From assembly GCF_009649955.1 (NCBI RefSeq), contig NZ_CP045875.1, positions 3,046,001-3,110,000 of the forward strand: a stretch of DNA of 64,000 bases. The letters run 5' to 3'. Shown here one piece after another: positions 32,197-40,602 of this stretch (its first letter is position 1; each line of letters starts with the position of its first letter). The stretch comes from Heliorestis convoluta (lineage in GTDB: Bacteria; Bacillota; Desulfitobacteriia; Heliobacteriales; Heliobacteriaceae). The position numbers were made by a program, and so were the translations under genes. A model generated the notes under the pieces. It was not told where the DNA came from, searched no databases, and worked only from the letters and a program-made list of their open reading frames with translations.

Positions 32197-33015
32197 TTAA
32201 TCTTCAAACACAACATTATCAATATGCACATTTACAGCACGAACAGAAACACCAAGTCCAGAATCAAGCACCTGCAGCACCCGTTCTTGAATGGCTTTGC
32301 CAAGTTGATTCAAAGGTTGTCCGCCGTAGAGGGTTACGAAAAGATCGACAATGATATCACCGTCATTATAATCTACATCAACCTTCTCTATGGTCGCTAC
32401 ACCTTCAATTGTACCTGCTTGATAGGTAACACTATCAATAAGAGCAGGACTAGAGATGGAAAGGTTACCAAGAGATGTAAAGGTAGGTCTTACAATAGAC
32501 TGTTCTGCCCAGGCTTTTCGCTCTTCACTTTTTTTGCGAAAGAATACTTTGATCGGATTAATCAAACCATCAGACCAGCGCTTTTTCACTTCAAAAGCAG
32601 GTGCAGGTACGACGTGTTTGCCCAGTTGCATACGATGATAACGAGCTTTGCGGATTTCTTTCGTCGATGCTACATCTTCAATGCGAATGATTTCTTTTAT
32701 TTTTGGCAGATCCAGTCGAGTCGCAATTTTTTTGACCATTCCGTCGGATGTACCCAGAATAAGCACACCTTGTGGAGATAGTTCAGCCAGTGCTTTTTTG
32801 GCATCATCCCGATGTTTTTCTTCATGAAACAAAGCTGTCTTAATAGCGCCGATGCGGGTTGCTGCTTTTTTGGCGGATATGCCTGCTAATATCTTATTGC
32901 TTTGTATTAACAGACCATCGTCGATGATGACCTGACAGTGTATGTCGTGGGCCAAACGGATGGCTCTGTGGCTTTTCCCAGTACCACTGGGACCGACGAA
33001 AGCGTATATCTGCAT
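32197..33015 (-). CDS. P-loop NTPase fused to Asp23/Gls24 domain
   Basis: A 272-residue protein. Residues 1-120 are a P-loop domain with Walker A FVGPSGTGKSHRA and VIIDDG and VLILGTSDG segments, like nucleoside/adenylate kinases. The C-terminal part (about 165-272) is an Asp23/Gls24 (YloU, DUF322) domain: GTIEGVATIEKVDVDY, IVDLFVTLYGGQPLNQLG and VRAVNVHIDNVVF. Asp23 proteins are envelope-stress or membrane-associated scaffold proteins; a kinase-like partner on the same chain is unusual. No membrane segment. Function unknown. Confidence 0.85.
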   Translation of the reverse strand: MQIYAFVGPSGTGKSHRAIRLAHDIHCQVIIDDGLLIQSNKILAGISAKKAATRIGAIKTALFHEEKHRDDAKKALAELSPQGVLILGTSDGMVKKIATRLDLPKIKEIIRIEDVASTKEIRKARYHRMQLGKHVVPAPAFEVKKRWSDGLINPIKVFFRKKSEERKAWAEQSIVRPTFTSLGNLSISSPALIDSVTYQAGTIEGVATIEKVDVDYNDGDIIVDLFVTLYGGQPLNQLGKAIQERVLQVLDSGLGVSVRAVNVHIDNVVFED

Positions 33016-33527: not shown

Positions 33528-34566
33528 CTCTATGAAGTAACCCCAACGTAATCAGGAAACATTGATTTTCATCCTTAGTTTTGCCCGGACATTGTGCCCG
33601 GACAAAAGCAGGATTCTGCTTTCTATTATACCATGTTAGAGCAAATCGTCTATGGCTTAACAAAATTAAAGGAAATTATTTACTATTTAATTAAAAAAGA
33701 AAGTGGAAAAAGAAGGAAAATAATTCCATATGGCGAATATAGTTTTAGAGTTTTTTATGAAGGAAAGGTGATGCTTATGGGCTGAGTTACCGAGGCAATG
33801 GTACTGACTCTGAAATCGATGTTTCCAATGCGTGATGCTGCAACTGTGGTGGTAGCTTTCGTAACGGCAGCACGTTACGGTGCAGAGAGGGATTTGTTCA
33901 GGAGGGCATTGCCAGAGGGGGCGTTATTTCATGCTTCTCTGATAAATTGTTTCGTTGTTGATCCTTTTTGCAGAGCGGAAACCCTGATTGGTAGGGAAAG
34001 CAGAAAGGTGAAGCATTCTCTTAAACCACGGAGGGTGATGGAGCGGGGAAGTAATAGGCCGGCATGAATAGCTAGATTAAGAAAGGAGGAGAAGGTCATA
34101 ACGGGAGGGTAATCGTTTTGTTATGGAATGACATAGAAGCTCGAGCAAATGACAATAAATTTTTTATGATGGTTCATTTTATCAGGTCTAATTCTTATAT
34201 TCTTTTGTCTCATCGGTGCTCACAAGCGCTGTATTAAGAAAAGCGATACCCAATGGGGAACAGCCGATAGACAAGGTGACAAATCATGCAGTCGGCAGCT
34301 GCGTGTATCATAGAGGAGGGTTAGGAGACCGGAAGCTTGGTATGGCTCCGGTCTCTATGTTTGGAGAATACTTTTGTGTTACATAAGCGAGTAATCAGGT
34401 TTTGTTGTATAAAAAATAAAAATCTTTTTGAGTTATCTATCCAAATGAAAGTGCATATATTCCTGTAAGTCTCTTTCCTTCCTGAATGTAAGACAGGCTT
34501 TCGACGCTATCAAAGTTCTAGAGACTTGGGTTGTAACGTAGCGATAGAAGGGACTGAAAAAAAGCG
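33528..34566. other. Gene-poor region with one further structured segment
   Basis: About 1 kb without a gene I can support. It starts with two copies of TGCCCGGACA 13 bases apart (33582 and 33595). An AT-rich stretch follows (33640-33780), then a more GC-rich part. At 34244-34309 GATAC/GTATC encloses GCCGA/TCGGC, and a 9-bp hairpin GAGACCGGA/TCCGGTCTC follows at 34325-34355; these could be a leader RNA with a terminator-like stem, 200 bases before the next gene. Two short frames here (33633-33785, 33798-34067) lack ribosome binding sites and look spurious. Confidence 0.45.
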
Positions 34567-34755
34567 ATGAACGGACCTATCAATGATAAAAATACGCCAT
34601 TTATACCATCTGATGAGTTTCAAAAAATGCAACAAATGGTAGAGGAAGTAGAAACCAAAGTTACGGATTTAGAAAAGCAGATGGAAGTGCTAGCTAGGCA
34701 TATGGTCCGAGTGGGTGAGCAGTTGGATCTATTGCTAAAAACAGGCTCTAAGTAA
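34567..34755 (+). CDS. Small coiled-coil protein, 62 residues
   Basis: Starts at ATG 34567; the upstream sequence is purine-rich but has no clear AGGAGG. The central part (MQQMVEEVETKVTDLEKQMEVLARHMVRVGEQLDLLL) has heptad-like hydrophobic spacing, so a short coiled coil is likely. It lies 33 bases before the sensor-like gene and may be its co-transcribed partner. No family recognised. Confidence 0.65.
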   Translation: MNGPINDKNTPFIPSDEFQKMQQMVEEVETKVTDLEKQMEVLARHMVRVGEQLDLLLKTGSK

Positions 34756-34788: not shown

Positions 34789-35775
34789 ATGAAGCTCCAG
34801 ACGAAAAAAAGGTTTATGCGATTGCTTGTGGGAGGTCTCTTCGTACCGTCCCTTTTGTTTGGATTTTTACTTCGCCCACTCCTTCAGGAGATGGATATAG
34901 ATCTGTCCTTTTTTCAATTTTCTATGGAATTAACGGGGTTATTAGCCTTTCTTATGCTGGTCATTGCCATGACCAGTCTTTATTTTGTGGAACAATGGTC
35001 TGAACAAGACTTTGTCAGGAATAAGAAATCGAAAGTGTTAATACAAGAAGAAGTAAAAGAAGATAAAGTAAATGAAATAGGGGTAAAAAATAACAAGTTA
35101 ACAGAGAAAGAGGATTCTTCTAGAGCAGACATCAATAGAATAGGGGAAGATATCCTGTTGTTGCTGAACCAGTTCGCTAAAAAGATAGGCCTGCAAACAG
35201 CGAGGTTAAAAGGTACCTTACAAGTGATGGAAGAAGATGTAGGTCAACACTCGCAACTTCAGACGTACAGTCGGTTACTTCAGCATCAATTGGTGGAACA
35301 GGAACGGCTATGGCAAGATATTTACAATGGTTTGATTCGAAATCCTTCTTTTTCTTGGACGCGGCTAGAGCAGATATTACAAGTCTTGCCCAGAGAAGGA
35401 CTCTCTGCAAACTTCATCAGAGAAAAAATATGGACCGATGGAGAAAAAGTAAAGTTGGCTTTTAGCCATCTCGCTCGCGTAGAAGCTTTACACGGAATTC
35501 GCTGTATAGATGGAGATACACAAAGACCTTTGCAGTTAACTTTTATTGTTTTCTTTGAAAACAAAACGGAAAAGGATGCTTCCCTAGAAGAAAATTTACA
35601 CTATCTTCTTGCTTATTGTATTTTCTATAAATTGAAATTACTAGTGAAAAAATCTTATCAAGATGAGGACAAAAGTCTTTTATGGACCCTAGAGTTTCCT
35701 TTGCAAGAAGAGTACCTATCTTCCTCAGAGAAGGGAGGTTGTAGAGGTGTCAGCAACCCTATTGATCATTGCTGA
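34789..35775 (+). CDS. Membrane protein resembling a degenerate sensor histidine kinase
   Basis: ATG 34789 with GGAGGA eight bases upstream gives 328 residues. Two membrane helices lie at about residues 13-75 with a very short outside loop, then a charged linker. The following helical segment (LLNQFAKKIGLQTARLKGTLQ, QHQLVEQERLW) is in the place of a dimerisation domain but has no H-E/D phosphorylation motif. The C-terminal part (WTDGEKVKLAFSHLARVEAL) resembles an N-box region without the conserved Asn and without G boxes. The final 29 bases overlap the next gene, an NtrC-like regulator. A sensor that signals without kinase activity is inference. Confidence 0.6.
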   Translation: MKLQTKKRFMRLLVGGLFVPSLLFGFLLRPLLQEMDIDLSFFQFSMELTGLLAFLMLVIAMTSLYFVEQWSEQDFVRNKKSKVLIQEEVKEDKVNEIGVKNNKLTEKEDSSRADINRIGEDILLLLNQFAKKIGLQTARLKGTLQVMEEDVGQHSQLQTYSRLLQHQLVEQERLWQDIYNGLIRNPSFSWTRLEQILQVLPREGLSANFIREKIWTDGEKVKLAFSHLARVEALHGIRCIDGDTQRPLQLTFIVFFENKTEKDASLEENLHYLLAYCIFYKLKLLVKKSYQDEDKSLLWTLEFPLQEEYLSSSEKGGCRGVSNPIDHC

Positions 35776-37435
35776 AGATGAGCATATGCGGTGGGTTTAT
35801 TTTCGAGCTCTTTCTTCTGTCGGCTACGAGGTAAGGGCCGTTGAAAGTGATGGAGAAGGTCATCGACTGATCAGTGAAACAGTACCACAGTTAGTACTTC
35901 TCGATCTGGATGCTCTTAACTGGAATGGAATGTTGATCTTACAAAAGTTGCAGCAAGAGCACCCTCAGCTTCCTGTGGTCGTCGTGAACCACCAGACAGG
36001 ATTAGAGAAAACGCTGCAAGCCCTTAAATTAGGAGCTTGTGATTACGTTCACAAACCCTTTGACCTGCAAGAATTACGCGTAACTGTTGAAAAAGCTCTC
36101 AAAATGGAATCACTTCAAGAAGAAGTTCGGTTTTTGCGTCAACAGGTGGGACGGGGTTATGGTGAATTTGAGCTGATAGGGCAGAGCCAAGCTATCAAAT
36201 CGATTCAACAGTTGGTTGATCAGGTAGCCAATTCAACGGCAACGGTTCTTTTACAAGGAGAGCGAGGTACAGGTAAAGAAACGGTGGCGAGAGCGCTCCA
36301 TTATCAAAGTCAACGTCGAGAAAAGCCTTTAATTATATTCGACTGTTCTGCAGTGCCGGAAAAATTGGTGGACAGGGAGCTCTTTGGTCAAGAAGATTTT
36401 GAACAAAGGCACAAAGGCGCCTTGATGATGGCCCAGGGTGGGACTCTGTACTTGAAAGAAATTACAGCTCTATCCTTGCCTATGCAAGCGAGCTTGTTCG
36501 AAGTATTGAATCGACGCTTTTTTCGACCTTTTCAGGGAGAGAAAGAGCAAGTGGTCGATGTGCGCTTTATTACTTCTACGACCCGTAATATATCTCAATT
36601 GGTCAAGCAAGGTCTTTTTCGTGAAGATCTCTACTACCATATCAGGATTGTTCCTGTCTTATTGCCTCCGTTGCGACAGCGTATGGAAGATATATCATCT
36701 CTCGCTCATCACTTTTTGAAACGCTATGATTCAACAGGTCGAATACACGGCTTTACAGCTTCTGCTATGGCTGCCTTAGAATCCTATCAATGGATGGGAA
36801 ATGTTAAAGAGTTGGCAACCGTTGTGGAAAGATCCATTCTTCTATGTCAGCAAGAATGGATTGATAGAGATGATTTATATTTGCCAGAAGTTGCGGAATG
36901 TTCTTATGATAGTTCCTATGAACAGGTTCGTAAAGATAGAGACTTTATCGAAAGAACTATAGAAAAAGTACGAGCAGAGATGGATGATAAGAATGAACAA
37001 AGGCAAAAGAGTATAGAAAGACCCGGTAAGCAAAGAGAAAACGTCGAAAGACAAAATCATGAAAGGCAAAGCAATGAAAGAAAGGGCTATGAAAGATTAG
37101 ACAGGAAAAGAAGTCGTAAAGAAAATATTCTGAACAACATAGAAAGAATTCAAGAAGAGAAAGTGAAGGCTCTCTGTGCCATCTCTGAAGAAGAACAAGC
37201 CCCTCTGCCAAAGAAAAAAGATAAAGTTATACAAGGTGCTGGCTTTACTTTGGTTTTACAAGATGATGAGTCTATTTTCATTGAAGAAATAGAAAAAAGG
37301 CTTATTCAATATGCACTGGAGCGATACCAAGGCGATCAGAATCAAGCTTCTCGTGCTCTTGGTATGACGAGAGCCTCCTTGGCTTCTAGGATGCAAAAAT
37401 ACCAGATCAATCAGGGTAGTCGCAGAAGATGGTAG
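35747..37435 (+). CDS. NtrC-family regulator lacking GAFTGA (degenerate sigma54 activator)
   Basis: GTG 35747 after AGGGAGG, 562 residues. Residues 1-120: receiver domain with phosphoacceptor Asp in LVLLDLD and Lys in VHKPFD, but Asn in place of the usual Thr/Ser. Residues about 140-385: AAA+ domain with intact Walker A GERGTGKE. The segment after ELFGQE runs straight into GALMMAQGGTLYLKE: the GAFTGA loop that contacts sigma54 is missing and Walker B has Lys where Asp is expected. A basic, low-complexity linker rich in ER/NE (about 395-480) precedes a C-terminal Fis-type HTH (QASRALGMTRASLASRMQ). Probably a DNA-binding regulator that does not activate sigma54. Confidence 0.82.
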   Translation: MSATLLIIAEDEHMRWVYFRALSSVGYEVRAVESDGEGHRLISETVPQLVLLDLDALNWNGMLILQKLQQEHPQLPVVVVNHQTGLEKTLQALKLGACDYVHKPFDLQELRVTVEKALKMESLQEEVRFLRQQVGRGYGEFELIGQSQAIKSIQQLVDQVANSTATVLLQGERGTGKETVARALHYQSQRREKPLIIFDCSAVPEKLVDRELFGQEDFEQRHKGALMMAQGGTLYLKEITALSLPMQASLFEVLNRRFFRPFQGEKEQVVDVRFITSTTRNISQLVKQGLFREDLYYHIRIVPVLLPPLRQRMEDISSLAHHFLKRYDSTGRIHGFTASAMAALESYQWMGNVKELATVVERSILLCQQEWIDRDDLYLPEVAECSYDSSYEQVRKDRDFIERTIEKVRAEMDDKNEQRQKSIERPGKQRENVERQNHERQSNERKGYERLDRKRSRKENILNNIERIQEEKVKALCAISEEEQAPLPKKKDKVIQGAGFTLVLQDDESIFIEEIEKRLIQYALERYQGDQNQASRALGMTRASLASRMQKYQINQGSRRRW

Positions 37436-38303: not shown

Positions 38304-38431
38304 CATCGTTATTTGACCTTTATAGCGCAGAGAAATGAATGCTAAGTAATTAATTCCAATTGAAACCTGACATGAGGCTTTCTAGCGTAGCATAGTTGGT
38401 AGATATAAGAAAGCGGAGGGAGTTTACGCTG

Positions 38432-39505
38432 ATGACTCATATTCTTGCCGTGGGAACTGCTGTGCCGGAGCAAGTGGTTAGACAGTCGGAAGCGCGACTA
38501 TTTGCGCAGGAATTTTTTAAAGAGGAATTTAAGGATATGCATCGTTTGCTGCAGGTTTTTGAACGAAGCAAAATTGAGAAGCGCCACTTTTGTATGCCTT
38601 CTTCTTGGTTTGAGAAAAAAGTATCTTTTTCCGAAAAAAACAAACTCTATCAAGAGCAAGGTCTTACATTAGGCACAAAAGCGGTGGAGAAGTGCTTGCA
38701 GAAAGCAGGCTTGTCGGCGCAGGATATTGATGGAATCGTCTTTGTTTCTTCTACAGGTATTGCCACACCATCTCTAGACATGTACTTTGCCAATCTTTTA
38801 GGGCTCAAGGCAGAAGTACGACGCATGCCTTTATGGGGTCTCGGTTGTTGCGGTGGTGCTGTCGGTCTTAGTCGAGCTGCCGAACTTGCCAAAGCTACTC
38901 CAGGAAAAAATATACTTTTGCTAACCCTAGAGTTATGTGGCCTTACCTTTATGCATTCTGATCGCTCTAAAAGCAACTTAATTGCCACTGCTTTATTTGC
39001 CGATGGTGCTGCGGCAGCTCTTCTATCACAGGAGAGCAACGATACGAAGGAGTCTAGAACAATTGTTCAAGCAGGACCTACTATCTTAGACTGGCAAAGT
39101 CATTACTGGCCTGAAAGCCTGGACGTCATGGGTTGGGATCTAACGGATGATGGGTTGCAAGTTGTTTTTTCTCGACATATTCCTAGTTTGGTCAAGAAAG
39201 AAATAAAAAACATTGTAGAACCTTTTATTTCTAGGCACAAGTTGACCTTCGACCAGATAGACTTCTTAATTGCCCATCCTGGAGGGCTAAAAGTACTTGA
39301 TGCTTATGAAGAAGCGCTTGGGTTAGAGTATGAAAAGACCGAGCTTTCTAGAGAAATTCTTTGCCAATATGGCAATATGTCATCAGCGACAGTACTTTTT
39401 GTGTTAGAAGAAACAATGAAAAGGGAACCGAAAAAAGGTAGCTACGGTCTACTCACAGCACTAGGCCCAGGCTTTTGCTCGGAACTTCTTCTGGTGCAAT
39501 GGTGA
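38432..39505 (+). CDS. bpsA: Type III polyketide synthase (BpsA-like)
   Basis: A 357-residue chalcone/stilbene-synthase-type enzyme from ATG 38432 (GGAGGGA ten bases upstream). The Cys-His-Asn triad is visible: Cys in LWGLGCCGGA, His in IAHPGG and Asn in QYGNMSSAT. The family condenses a fatty acyl-CoA with malonyl-CoA to make alkylpyrones or alkylresorcinols. The next gene encodes an isoprenylcysteine-methyltransferase-like protein, the bpsA-bpsB arrangement of Bacillus subtilis, where BpsB O-methylates the alkylpyrone. Product chain length cannot be predicted. Confidence 0.92.
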   Translation: MTHILAVGTAVPEQVVRQSEARLFAQEFFKEEFKDMHRLLQVFERSKIEKRHFCMPSSWFEKKVSFSEKNKLYQEQGLTLGTKAVEKCLQKAGLSAQDIDGIVFVSSTGIATPSLDMYFANLLGLKAEVRRMPLWGLGCCGGAVGLSRAAELAKATPGKNILLLTLELCGLTFMHSDRSKSNLIATALFADGAAAALLSQESNDTKESRTIVQAGPTILDWQSHYWPESLDVMGWDLTDDGLQVVFSRHIPSLVKKEIKNIVEPFISRHKLTFDQIDFLIAHPGGLKVLDAYEEALGLEYEKTELSREILCQYGNMSSATVLFVLEETMKREPKKGSYGLLTALGPGFCSELLLVQW

Positions 39506-39577: not shown

Positions 39578-40150
39578 TTGTATCTATTTTTTCACATTCT
39601 CTACATTCTACTGATTCTACAGCGACTTGGGGAGCTAGTGCTGGCGCAACGAAATGGTCATTTCTTGCAACAAAAGGGAGGCTACGAAGTCGGACGAGAG
39701 CAATACAAAATAATAATTTTACTACACAGTCTCTTTTTTCTTGCACTTTATACAGAAGTGATATTCCTAGAAAGTGTGGCACCTTTGTGGTGGCCTTTGC
39801 CTGCTGCTTTATTTTTTCTGGCGCAGTTTATTCGGTATTGGGCAATTTTTTCTCTCGGCCCTTACTGGAACACCCGTATTTTTGTATTGCCGCAGGCGCC
39901 TGTTGTTACCAAAGGGCCTTATCGCTATCTTCGACATCCCAATTATCTCGTTGTGGTTATCGAGTTGCTTACCTTACCGCTCATCTTTGGGGCTTACGGA
40001 ACAGCCCTCATTTTTACAATTGCCAATGCCTATATACTTTCTCAACGCATTGCTTTGGAAGAACGAGCTTTGGCTGAAGCGACAAATTATGTAGAAGCAA
40101 TGGCTCATCTACCTCGATGGTGGCCACGAAGAAAAAAGCCGGTCTCTTAA
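39578..40150 (+). CDS. bpsB: Isoprenylcysteine carboxylmethyltransferase-family protein (BpsB-like)
   Basis: A 190-residue integral membrane protein with four to five helices. TTG 39578 has AAGGAG about 10 bases upstream. The C-terminal SAM-binding motif GPYRYLRHPNYLVVVIELL is typical of the ICMT/PEMT family. Pairing with the type III polyketide synthase upstream indicates methylation of the alkylpyrone/alkylresorcinol product at the membrane. Confidence 0.9.
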   Translation: MYLFFHILYILLILQRLGELVLAQRNGHFLQQKGGYEVGREQYKIIILLHSLFFLALYTEVIFLESVAPLWWPLPAALFFLAQFIRYWAIFSLGPYWNTRIFVLPQAPVVTKGPYRYLRHPNYLVVVIELLTLPLIFGAYGTALIFTIANAYILSQRIALEERALAEATNYVEAMAHLPRWWPRRKKPVS

Positions 40151-40233: not shown

Positions 40234-40602
40234 AAGAGTATGGCTGTAATCGAGATTCTGTCCTCGGCCATAGCCGATGGATAGTCATTTGTCTAAGCAA
40301 AGCTTTGGTTAGAAACTTTACTTCTCGCCGTAGCGAGTGCCCCTACCCGCGACACAAGGCCGCCTATTTGGGTTGCACGCTAGTGGAGTTTACCCTTGCA
40401 CTCCTCTGTCACCAGAGGACATCGTTTCTGTGGCACTTTATAGCGACTCACATCTTCGAAAAGATGTTTTTGCTGTCGTCAGGTCGCCCTGCCCTGGCTT
40501 GCACCAGGCACCATACTCCAGACCCACAAGTAAGCAGGCCTGGGCGTGTCTCGAATTTCCTCGACATCTACAACAGATGCCGCAACTATCCACCATACTC
40601 TT
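40234..40602 (-). ncRNA. rnpB: RNase P RNA
   Basis: Read on the minus strand. 5' AGAGTATGG and 3' CCATACTCT form helix P1. Between them lie the expected conserved blocks: GAGGAAA (CR I), AGTGCCACAGAAACGA, GCAAGGGTAAACTCC, CCCAAATAGGCGG and, near the 3' end, GAGGACAGAATCTCGATTACAGCC-like ACAGAA (CR V). The length, about 369 bases, suits a bacterial P RNA. A -10 box TAGAAT preceded by TG (plus-strand 40607-40615) lies six bases before the 5' end. It is the catalytic RNA that removes tRNA 5' leaders. Confidence 0.93.

Follow-up and report, generated by a model that had tools for sequence, protein, structure and literature searches.

A conserved gene pair of heliobacteria encoding a putative membrane pseudokinase and a GAFTGA-less NtrC-like regulator may signal without phosphotransfer and sigma54

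Two overlapping genes that encode proteins resembling the partners of a two-component system lie on the + strand of the window, by which we mean the whole 64,000-nucleotide stretch of DNA that was analysed (G+C content 43.0%). The first gene (34789-35775, start ATG) encodes a 328-aa sensor, a putative membrane pseudokinase, and the second (35747-37435, start GTG) encodes a 562-aa NtrC-like regulator; the overlap of 29 bases given in an earlier note on this DNA follows exactly from these coordinates. A gene for a 62-aa coiled-coil protein (34567-34755, +) is located 5' of the sensor gene and is the probable first gene of an operon containing the pair. This small protein is a possible third component of the system, and a LEILARH-like motif that it carries was found at five of the seven orthologous loci searched, the exceptions being the loci of genomes G001 and G007. 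On the 3' side the pair has as its neighbour a type III polyketide synthase (PKS) gene (38396-39505, +), next to which lies an ICMT-family methyltransferase gene (39578-40150, +). A class B RNase P RNA (40242-40597, - strand) is also seen at the G001 and G006 loci, and a gene at 32197-33015 (- strand), conserved at the locus, encodes a protein that starts with a P-loop-like stretch and ends in an Asp23-family part.

The locus was compared within a family set of 9 genomes and a class set of 82. The family is almost certainly Heliobacteriaceae; BchZ-like proteins were found at about 400 bits, under the BchZ family cut-off of 529, in eight of the nine genomes (none in G003), and nothing above 75 bits was found in 12 other relatives, a pattern that is expected of heliobacteria. 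Regulator orthologues are clear in seven of the eight family relatives, and a profile search of the 82 class genomes placed the sensor in the same eight genomes as the regulator. The search for conserved pairs in relatives that the earlier note had proposed located the two genes adjacent and in the same order in 8/9 family genomes (G004 is the exception), with the same residue losses in all eight. Both frames are open in every pair-bearing genome, and the sensor gene is always in front.

The type III PKS gene is a possible, not an established, target of the regulator. It adjoins the pair in seven of the eight pair-bearing genomes, and in G004 the sensor, the regulator and the PKS are all missing between retained flanks. 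The joint loss was considered as a clue to the target and dropped, since G004 retains a PKS on another contig. The adjacency is not a stable link, because the PKS of G003 lies elsewhere and G004 has a PKS without the pair. No perfect inverted repeat that could serve as a target site was shared between genomes in 17 intergenic stretches, and the sole long block common to these stretches is part of an RNA candidate located upstream.

This candidate structured RNA of about 700 nt (33640-34372, +; 3' domain 34243-34363) lies in a stretch without convincing genes that separates the small coiled-coil gene from the one at 32197-33015. It is conserved and can be aligned at the equivalent position of six genomes, has no match among Rfam families and ends with a hairpin and a U-run in G008; by simple count, compensatory changes affect 29 of its 74 predicted pairs. 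A model of the last 121 bases matched 8/9 family genomes and none of the 73 others in the class, six of the eight matches being sequences used to build the model and those of G007 and G004 being new. Among the genomes compared, the RNA candidate is restricted to heliobacteria, and its presence in G004, where the pair is missing, marks it as an element of its own. A weak second match of the model was found in the window's genome (C1:1345352-1345433, L229; 28 bits, E 4.9e-4).

The regulator is a member of the NtrC-like homology family, with the Pfam domains Response_reg, Sigma54_activat (160.6 bits), AAA lid and HTH_8 (43.4 bits) all above their cut-offs. Among solved structures it is nearest in sequence to NtrC1 (4l4u, 1ny5) and LuxO; a structure predicted for it, with a mean pLDDT of 68 and higher values in the AAA+ core, matched those of NtrC1, NtrX and VpsR. 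The receiver-like domain (aa 5-119; 35759-36103; this and all further features of the two genes are on the + strand) retains Asp53, as the earlier note had it, and also Lys103, both invariant in 8/8 regulators. Beyond what was noted earlier, the first acid of the metal pair (DD1) is replaced by Ala9 and the switch Thr/Ser by Asn81. In the order window, G001, G006, G002, G008, G005, G007, G003, which is used for all residue series here, DD1 reads A,A,T,T,S,S,S,A and is non-acidic in 8/8; DD2 reads E,E,P,P,P,P,P,G, being acidic (Glu10) in the window's genus and Pro/Gly in 6/8; and column 81 reads N,S,T,T,T,T,T,L. According to the available sections of Bourret et al. (PMC12632262), both DD positions are 100% acidic in true receivers, and a pseudo-receiver is a domain that lacks at least one of D, DD, T and K. 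Because DD1 is non-acidic in all eight orthologues, the domain is, as judged from its sequence, a pseudo-receiver.

The AAA+ domain (aa 143-377; 36173-36877) keeps its Walker A motif, GERGTGKE (aa 171-178; 36257-36280), as claimed before: G171..GK177 is present and GxxGxGK is invariant in 8/8. The claimed loss of GAFTGA is likewise real, the motif being replaced by a shortened L1 loop (36377-36424) that reads ELFGQE-DFEQRHKGAL; GAFTGA is found in none of the eight orthologues and nowhere else in the whole regulator. The Walker B motif is degenerate (TLYLKE, with LYLKE at 36446-36460), and its Asp, the loss of which had also been pointed out, is Lys237 in the window and is replaced in 8/8 (K,K,Q,Q,R,R,R,E). 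Two further replacements, which had escaped the earlier note, concern the sensor I Asn (T,T,G,S,T,S,S,S) and the second arginine finger. With Walker A kept and the Walker B Asp lost, the domain can be expected to bind ATP and should not hydrolyse it. The linker that follows (aa 380-510; 36884-37276) had been described as long and basic; it is indeed long, with 131 aa, but it is variable and highly charged rather than basic, being close to neutral overall (29 K+R, 30 D+E, net -1). It leads to a Fis-type HTH (HTH_8, above cut-off with E=2.8e-11; aa 512-552; 37280-37402), in line with what had been recognised before.

The sensor consists of a two-helix transmembrane hairpin, a DHp-like helical hairpin (aa 122-184; 35152-35340), which is its best-conserved part, and a degenerate C-terminal part; in G003 it is shortened to 166 aa. 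The position aligned with the phospho-acceptor His of the H-box is Lys131, and there is no His at this position in any of the eight sensors (K in the window, then L,P,P,P,S,R,R). Neither HisKA nor HATPase_c gave a Pfam match at E<=1 when the window's sensor and all 8 orthologues were scanned, HATPase_c being unmatched in 8/8 sensors. The absence of a phosphorylatable His and of an ATPase signature, both asserted in the earlier note, is thus borne out. A conserved His elsewhere was looked for as well: one is present a turn past the H-box in five of the eight sensors, those of the window, G001 and G003 being without it. The sensor profile aligns gap-free across the H-box with a genuine HELRNP kinase (L188; E 1.2e-9 for one genome, G024). 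It has weak matches in 26 other class genomes, of which L188, inspected over its whole length, proved to be an ordinary kinase. With a DHp-like hairpin that is homologous to kinases and lacks the His, the sensor would qualify as a pseudo-histidine kinase. The structure prediction for the sensor, a poor one at pLDDT 50, does not confirm the DHp fold, and a profile search of solved structures with the sensors gave weak matches, the best at E 0.11. The combination of two hydrophobic helices with a DHp-like hairpin suggests a membrane-tethered docking partner.

The gene for sigma54, rpoN, was not detectable in the window's genome with PF04552 and TIGR02395. With TIGR02395 it was found in 0/2 genomes of the window's genus and in 7/7 other genomes of the family, six of which carry an orthologue of the pair. 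A role as sigma54 activator is excluded for the regulator in the window's genome, where no rpoN is detected; among the features of a functional sigma54 enhancer-binding protein the regulator has Walker A and lacks GAFTGA, the Walker B Asp-Glu and an rpoN in the same genome. Its independence of sigma54 is well supported by these comparisons. The idea that GAFTGA was lost as a result of rpoN loss had to be rejected, as the orthologues from six rpoN-bearing genomes also lack GAFTGA; because these six genomes show the same losses, the losses predate the loss of rpoN.

The nine family genomes encode 43 NtrC-type proteins, a set derived from 59 domain rows after 15 rows below 60 bits had been dropped as other AAA+ ATPases, not individually checked, and two rows had been recognised as one protein. 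A GAFTGA-like loop is present in 27 of the 43 (G002_C161, which has an in-frame stop, was counted here and excluded from the tree) and missing from 16, namely eight proteins of the window clade, seven of a group that we call group B and one lone protein of the window's genome. In a tree built without the loop columns the window clade is monophyletic (0.994), as is group B (1.0). All five NtrC-type proteins of the rpoN-less genus lack GAFTGA, versus 11/38 in the seven rpoN-bearing genomes, where 27/38 have it (Fisher p=0.0045, a value that is descriptive as the genomes are related). The window's genome encodes one more NtrC-type protein, its third (L003:943-2106, - strand; 387 aa), in which no receiver was seen and which lacks GAFTGA and the Walker B Asp. 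Among 80 far matches kept of 565, 71 have a GAFTGA-like loop by a loose pattern, three have GAFTSA, one (L176) was left unscored, and five have the loop deleted, these five retaining the Walker B Asp-Glu as judged by eye. A special kinship with alphaproteobacterial NtrX was also considered and rejected, since the window clade stands apart in the tree, the deeper nodes of which are weakly supported.

NtrC-type proteins were also sought in six other genomes of the class whose rpoN match was absent or fragmentary. In G018 (99% complete), G023 (94%) and G053 (82%) there was none at E<=1e-15, and G037, G046 and G051 gave 29, 9 and 10 matches. Of the latter 48, 30 were inspected and 29 were GAFTGA-like (28 on the pattern and one GSYTGA), the remaining one (L217) being a fragment that was left unscored. 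Because 29/30 keep the loop, rpoN is probably just missing from these three assemblies. The usual outcome of a real-looking loss of rpoN is then the loss of all NtrC-type proteins, with the window's genus retaining loop-less ones only. The principle that NtrC-type proteins may survive without sigma54 is already known: as far as the available text of Francke et al. 2011 (PMC3162934) goes, NtrC-type proteins with altered GAFTGA occur in two sigma54-less organisms.

We propose that a two-component system had been converted, no later than in the common ancestor of the family, into a pair that would work without phosphotransfer and sigma54. The sensor would be a membrane-anchored pseudokinase that kept the DHp hairpin after its acceptor His and ATPase domain were gone, and its partner would combine a pseudo-receiver, an AAA+ domain that binds ATP and does not hydrolyse it, and a Fis HTH. 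Within the receiver, alpha1 (0.70) and alpha5 (0.71) are the most conserved parts, versus 0.41 for alpha4 and 0.46 for the metal-site loop; alpha1 and alpha5 are the faces of a receiver at which kinases dock. The DHp-like hairpin would dock on this alpha1/alpha5 face, and a membrane signal would decide whether the sensor holds or releases the regulator. Once released, dimers or higher oligomers of the regulator would act on promoters of the sigma70 type, by repression or by contacting RNA polymerase. The residue losses and their conservation, the purifying selection discussed below and the lack of a detectable rpoN come from comparison of sequences; from these we infer the docking of the sensor on the receiver, the binding of ATP without its hydrolysis and the action of the regulator at sigma70 promoters. 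Docking control of a sigma70-type regulator is favoured because the nucleotide site is kept and the hydrolysis site is lost, as in Rhodobacter capsulatus NtrC, which, in the available text of PMC10274813, needs ATP binding and not hydrolysis at sigma70 promoters. On balance, we consider it probable that the pair is free of both phosphotransfer and sigma54 and that docking of the sensor controls a regulator of sigma70-type promoters. Comparison therefore supports the earlier suggestion that the pair may need neither phosphotransfer nor sigma54 for signalling: the H-box His, the DD1 acid, GAFTGA and the Walker B Asp are lost in 8/8, no rpoN is detectable in the window's genome, and the dN/dS values of the receiver and AAA+ domains speak against decay.

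Four orthologue pairs had a usable dS, and their dN/dS was 0.10-0.12 for the receiver, 0.05-0.17 for the AAA+ domain and 0.15-0.25 for the whole regulator; the HTH is also under purifying selection, and the linker gave 0.43-0.64 in the three of the four pairs where it was computable. For the sensor the values were 0.41-0.67 in four pairs, and 0.23 within the window's genus, where its dS is near-saturated and that of the regulator is saturated. The regulator is thus preserved, lost sites included, while the sensor is under weak constraint and may have a minor role. It is conceivable, then, that the regulator works alone as a sigma70-type DNA-binding protein under the control of a small ligand or its own level, the sensor being a decaying passenger. 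The higher dN/dS of the sensor versus that of the whole regulator and the shortened sensor of G003 fit such a scenario, as does the presence of FleQ and VpsR, with c-di-GMP in their structure titles, among the structure matches of the regulator. However, an open sensor gene stands ahead of the regulator in 8/8 genomes, and it is the DHp-like part that is best conserved, so that we regard a solitary regulator as rather unlikely.

Another scenario retains phosphorylation: Asp53 would still be modified by another histidine kinase or a small-molecule donor, with the sensor acting as a modulator or phosphatase. It draws on the invariance of Asp53 and Lys103 and on the NtrC proteins of R. capsulatus and Caulobacter, which are GAFTGA-less yet Asp-dependent. 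In the window's genus Glu10 provides one metal-site acid, and residual phosphorylation of the receiver could still occur there. Yet a non-acidic DD1 in 8/8 and a Pro/Gly DD2 in 6/8 contrast with the fully acidic positions of true receivers in the sections of the review available (PMC12632262), and we hold this scenario to be quite improbable. That the two genes are pseudogenes decaying after the loss of sigma54, as the absence of several catalytic residues from both proteins might suggest, is barely credible and was rejected on the open frames in 8/8 and the purifying selection on receiver, AAA+ and HTH, the same losses being seen, moreover, in six rpoN-bearing genomes.

Returning to docking control, a stronger version of it can be put forward only tentatively, as we give it somewhat less credence than doubt: that the sensor, the receiver and the AAA+ motor are all non-catalytic, that signalling proceeds purely by docking and ATP binding, and that this arrangement was fixed in the family and outlived sigma54, so that only GAFTGA-less NtrC-type proteins outlived rpoN.

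The switching of pseudo-receivers is called a mystery in the available sections of a 2025 review (PMC12632262). Two neighbouring genes whose products both lack phosphotransfer residues, conserved in 8/9 genomes of the family, offer a clean natural test of docking control. The loss of rpoN in one genus is, in addition, an evolutionary experiment that tells which NtrC-type proteins survive without sigma54. A gene deletion has reportedly been published for Heliomicrobium modesticaldum (PMC12016533), a species that would be open to such a test if G005 belongs to it. No report of such a pair was found in the open-licence literature on heliobacterial sigma-54/rpoN, GAFTGA-less proteins and degenerate kinases.

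Several known systems resemble parts of the pair. Within the family, the proteins of group B (PAS-AAA+-Fis), present in 7/9 genomes, are also GAFTGA-less and are kept in both rpoN-less genomes; unlike the regulator, they form a separate clade, have a front that looks PAS-like by eye in place of the receiver, and keep the Walker B DE intact in both members from the window's genus. Two group B loci are L002:1063-2544 (- strand) and L055:2964-4418 (+ strand), and the neighbour genes of the group are ones that we take to be selA/selD and sleB/ypeB. Altered GAFTGA motifs are described, in the available text of PMC3162934, for TyrR, DhaR, HupR (sigma70) and NtrC-type proteins of Fusobacterium and Jannaschia, two of these cases being in sigma54-less genomes; all of them are single proteins assessed on one motif, whereas here a conserved pair has lost phosphotransfer residues on both sides. 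VpsR of Vibrio cholerae, the structure of which (7v2b) is among the matches and aligns with the regulator at 28-29% identity, is likewise GAFTGA-less with the receiver Asp kept, and works via sigma70, phosphorylation and ATP not being required; a degenerate partner kinase, present here, is not described for VpsR in the parts of the sources available. The L1 loop with GAFTGA is deleted in the NtrC proteins of R. capsulatus and Caulobacter as it is in the regulator, and these proteins act at sigma70 promoters. They need the receiver Asp, and that of Caulobacter needs Walker B too, whereas in the present pair the kinase-like partner has no His at the aligned position, DD1 is not acidic and the Asp of Walker B is replaced. 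Finally, the pseudo-histidine kinases and pseudo-receivers covered in the available sections of PMC12632262 similarly lack the aligned His or a metal-site acid, but kinase and receiver defects are treated separately in those sections, while in the pair described here both occur in adjacent genes.
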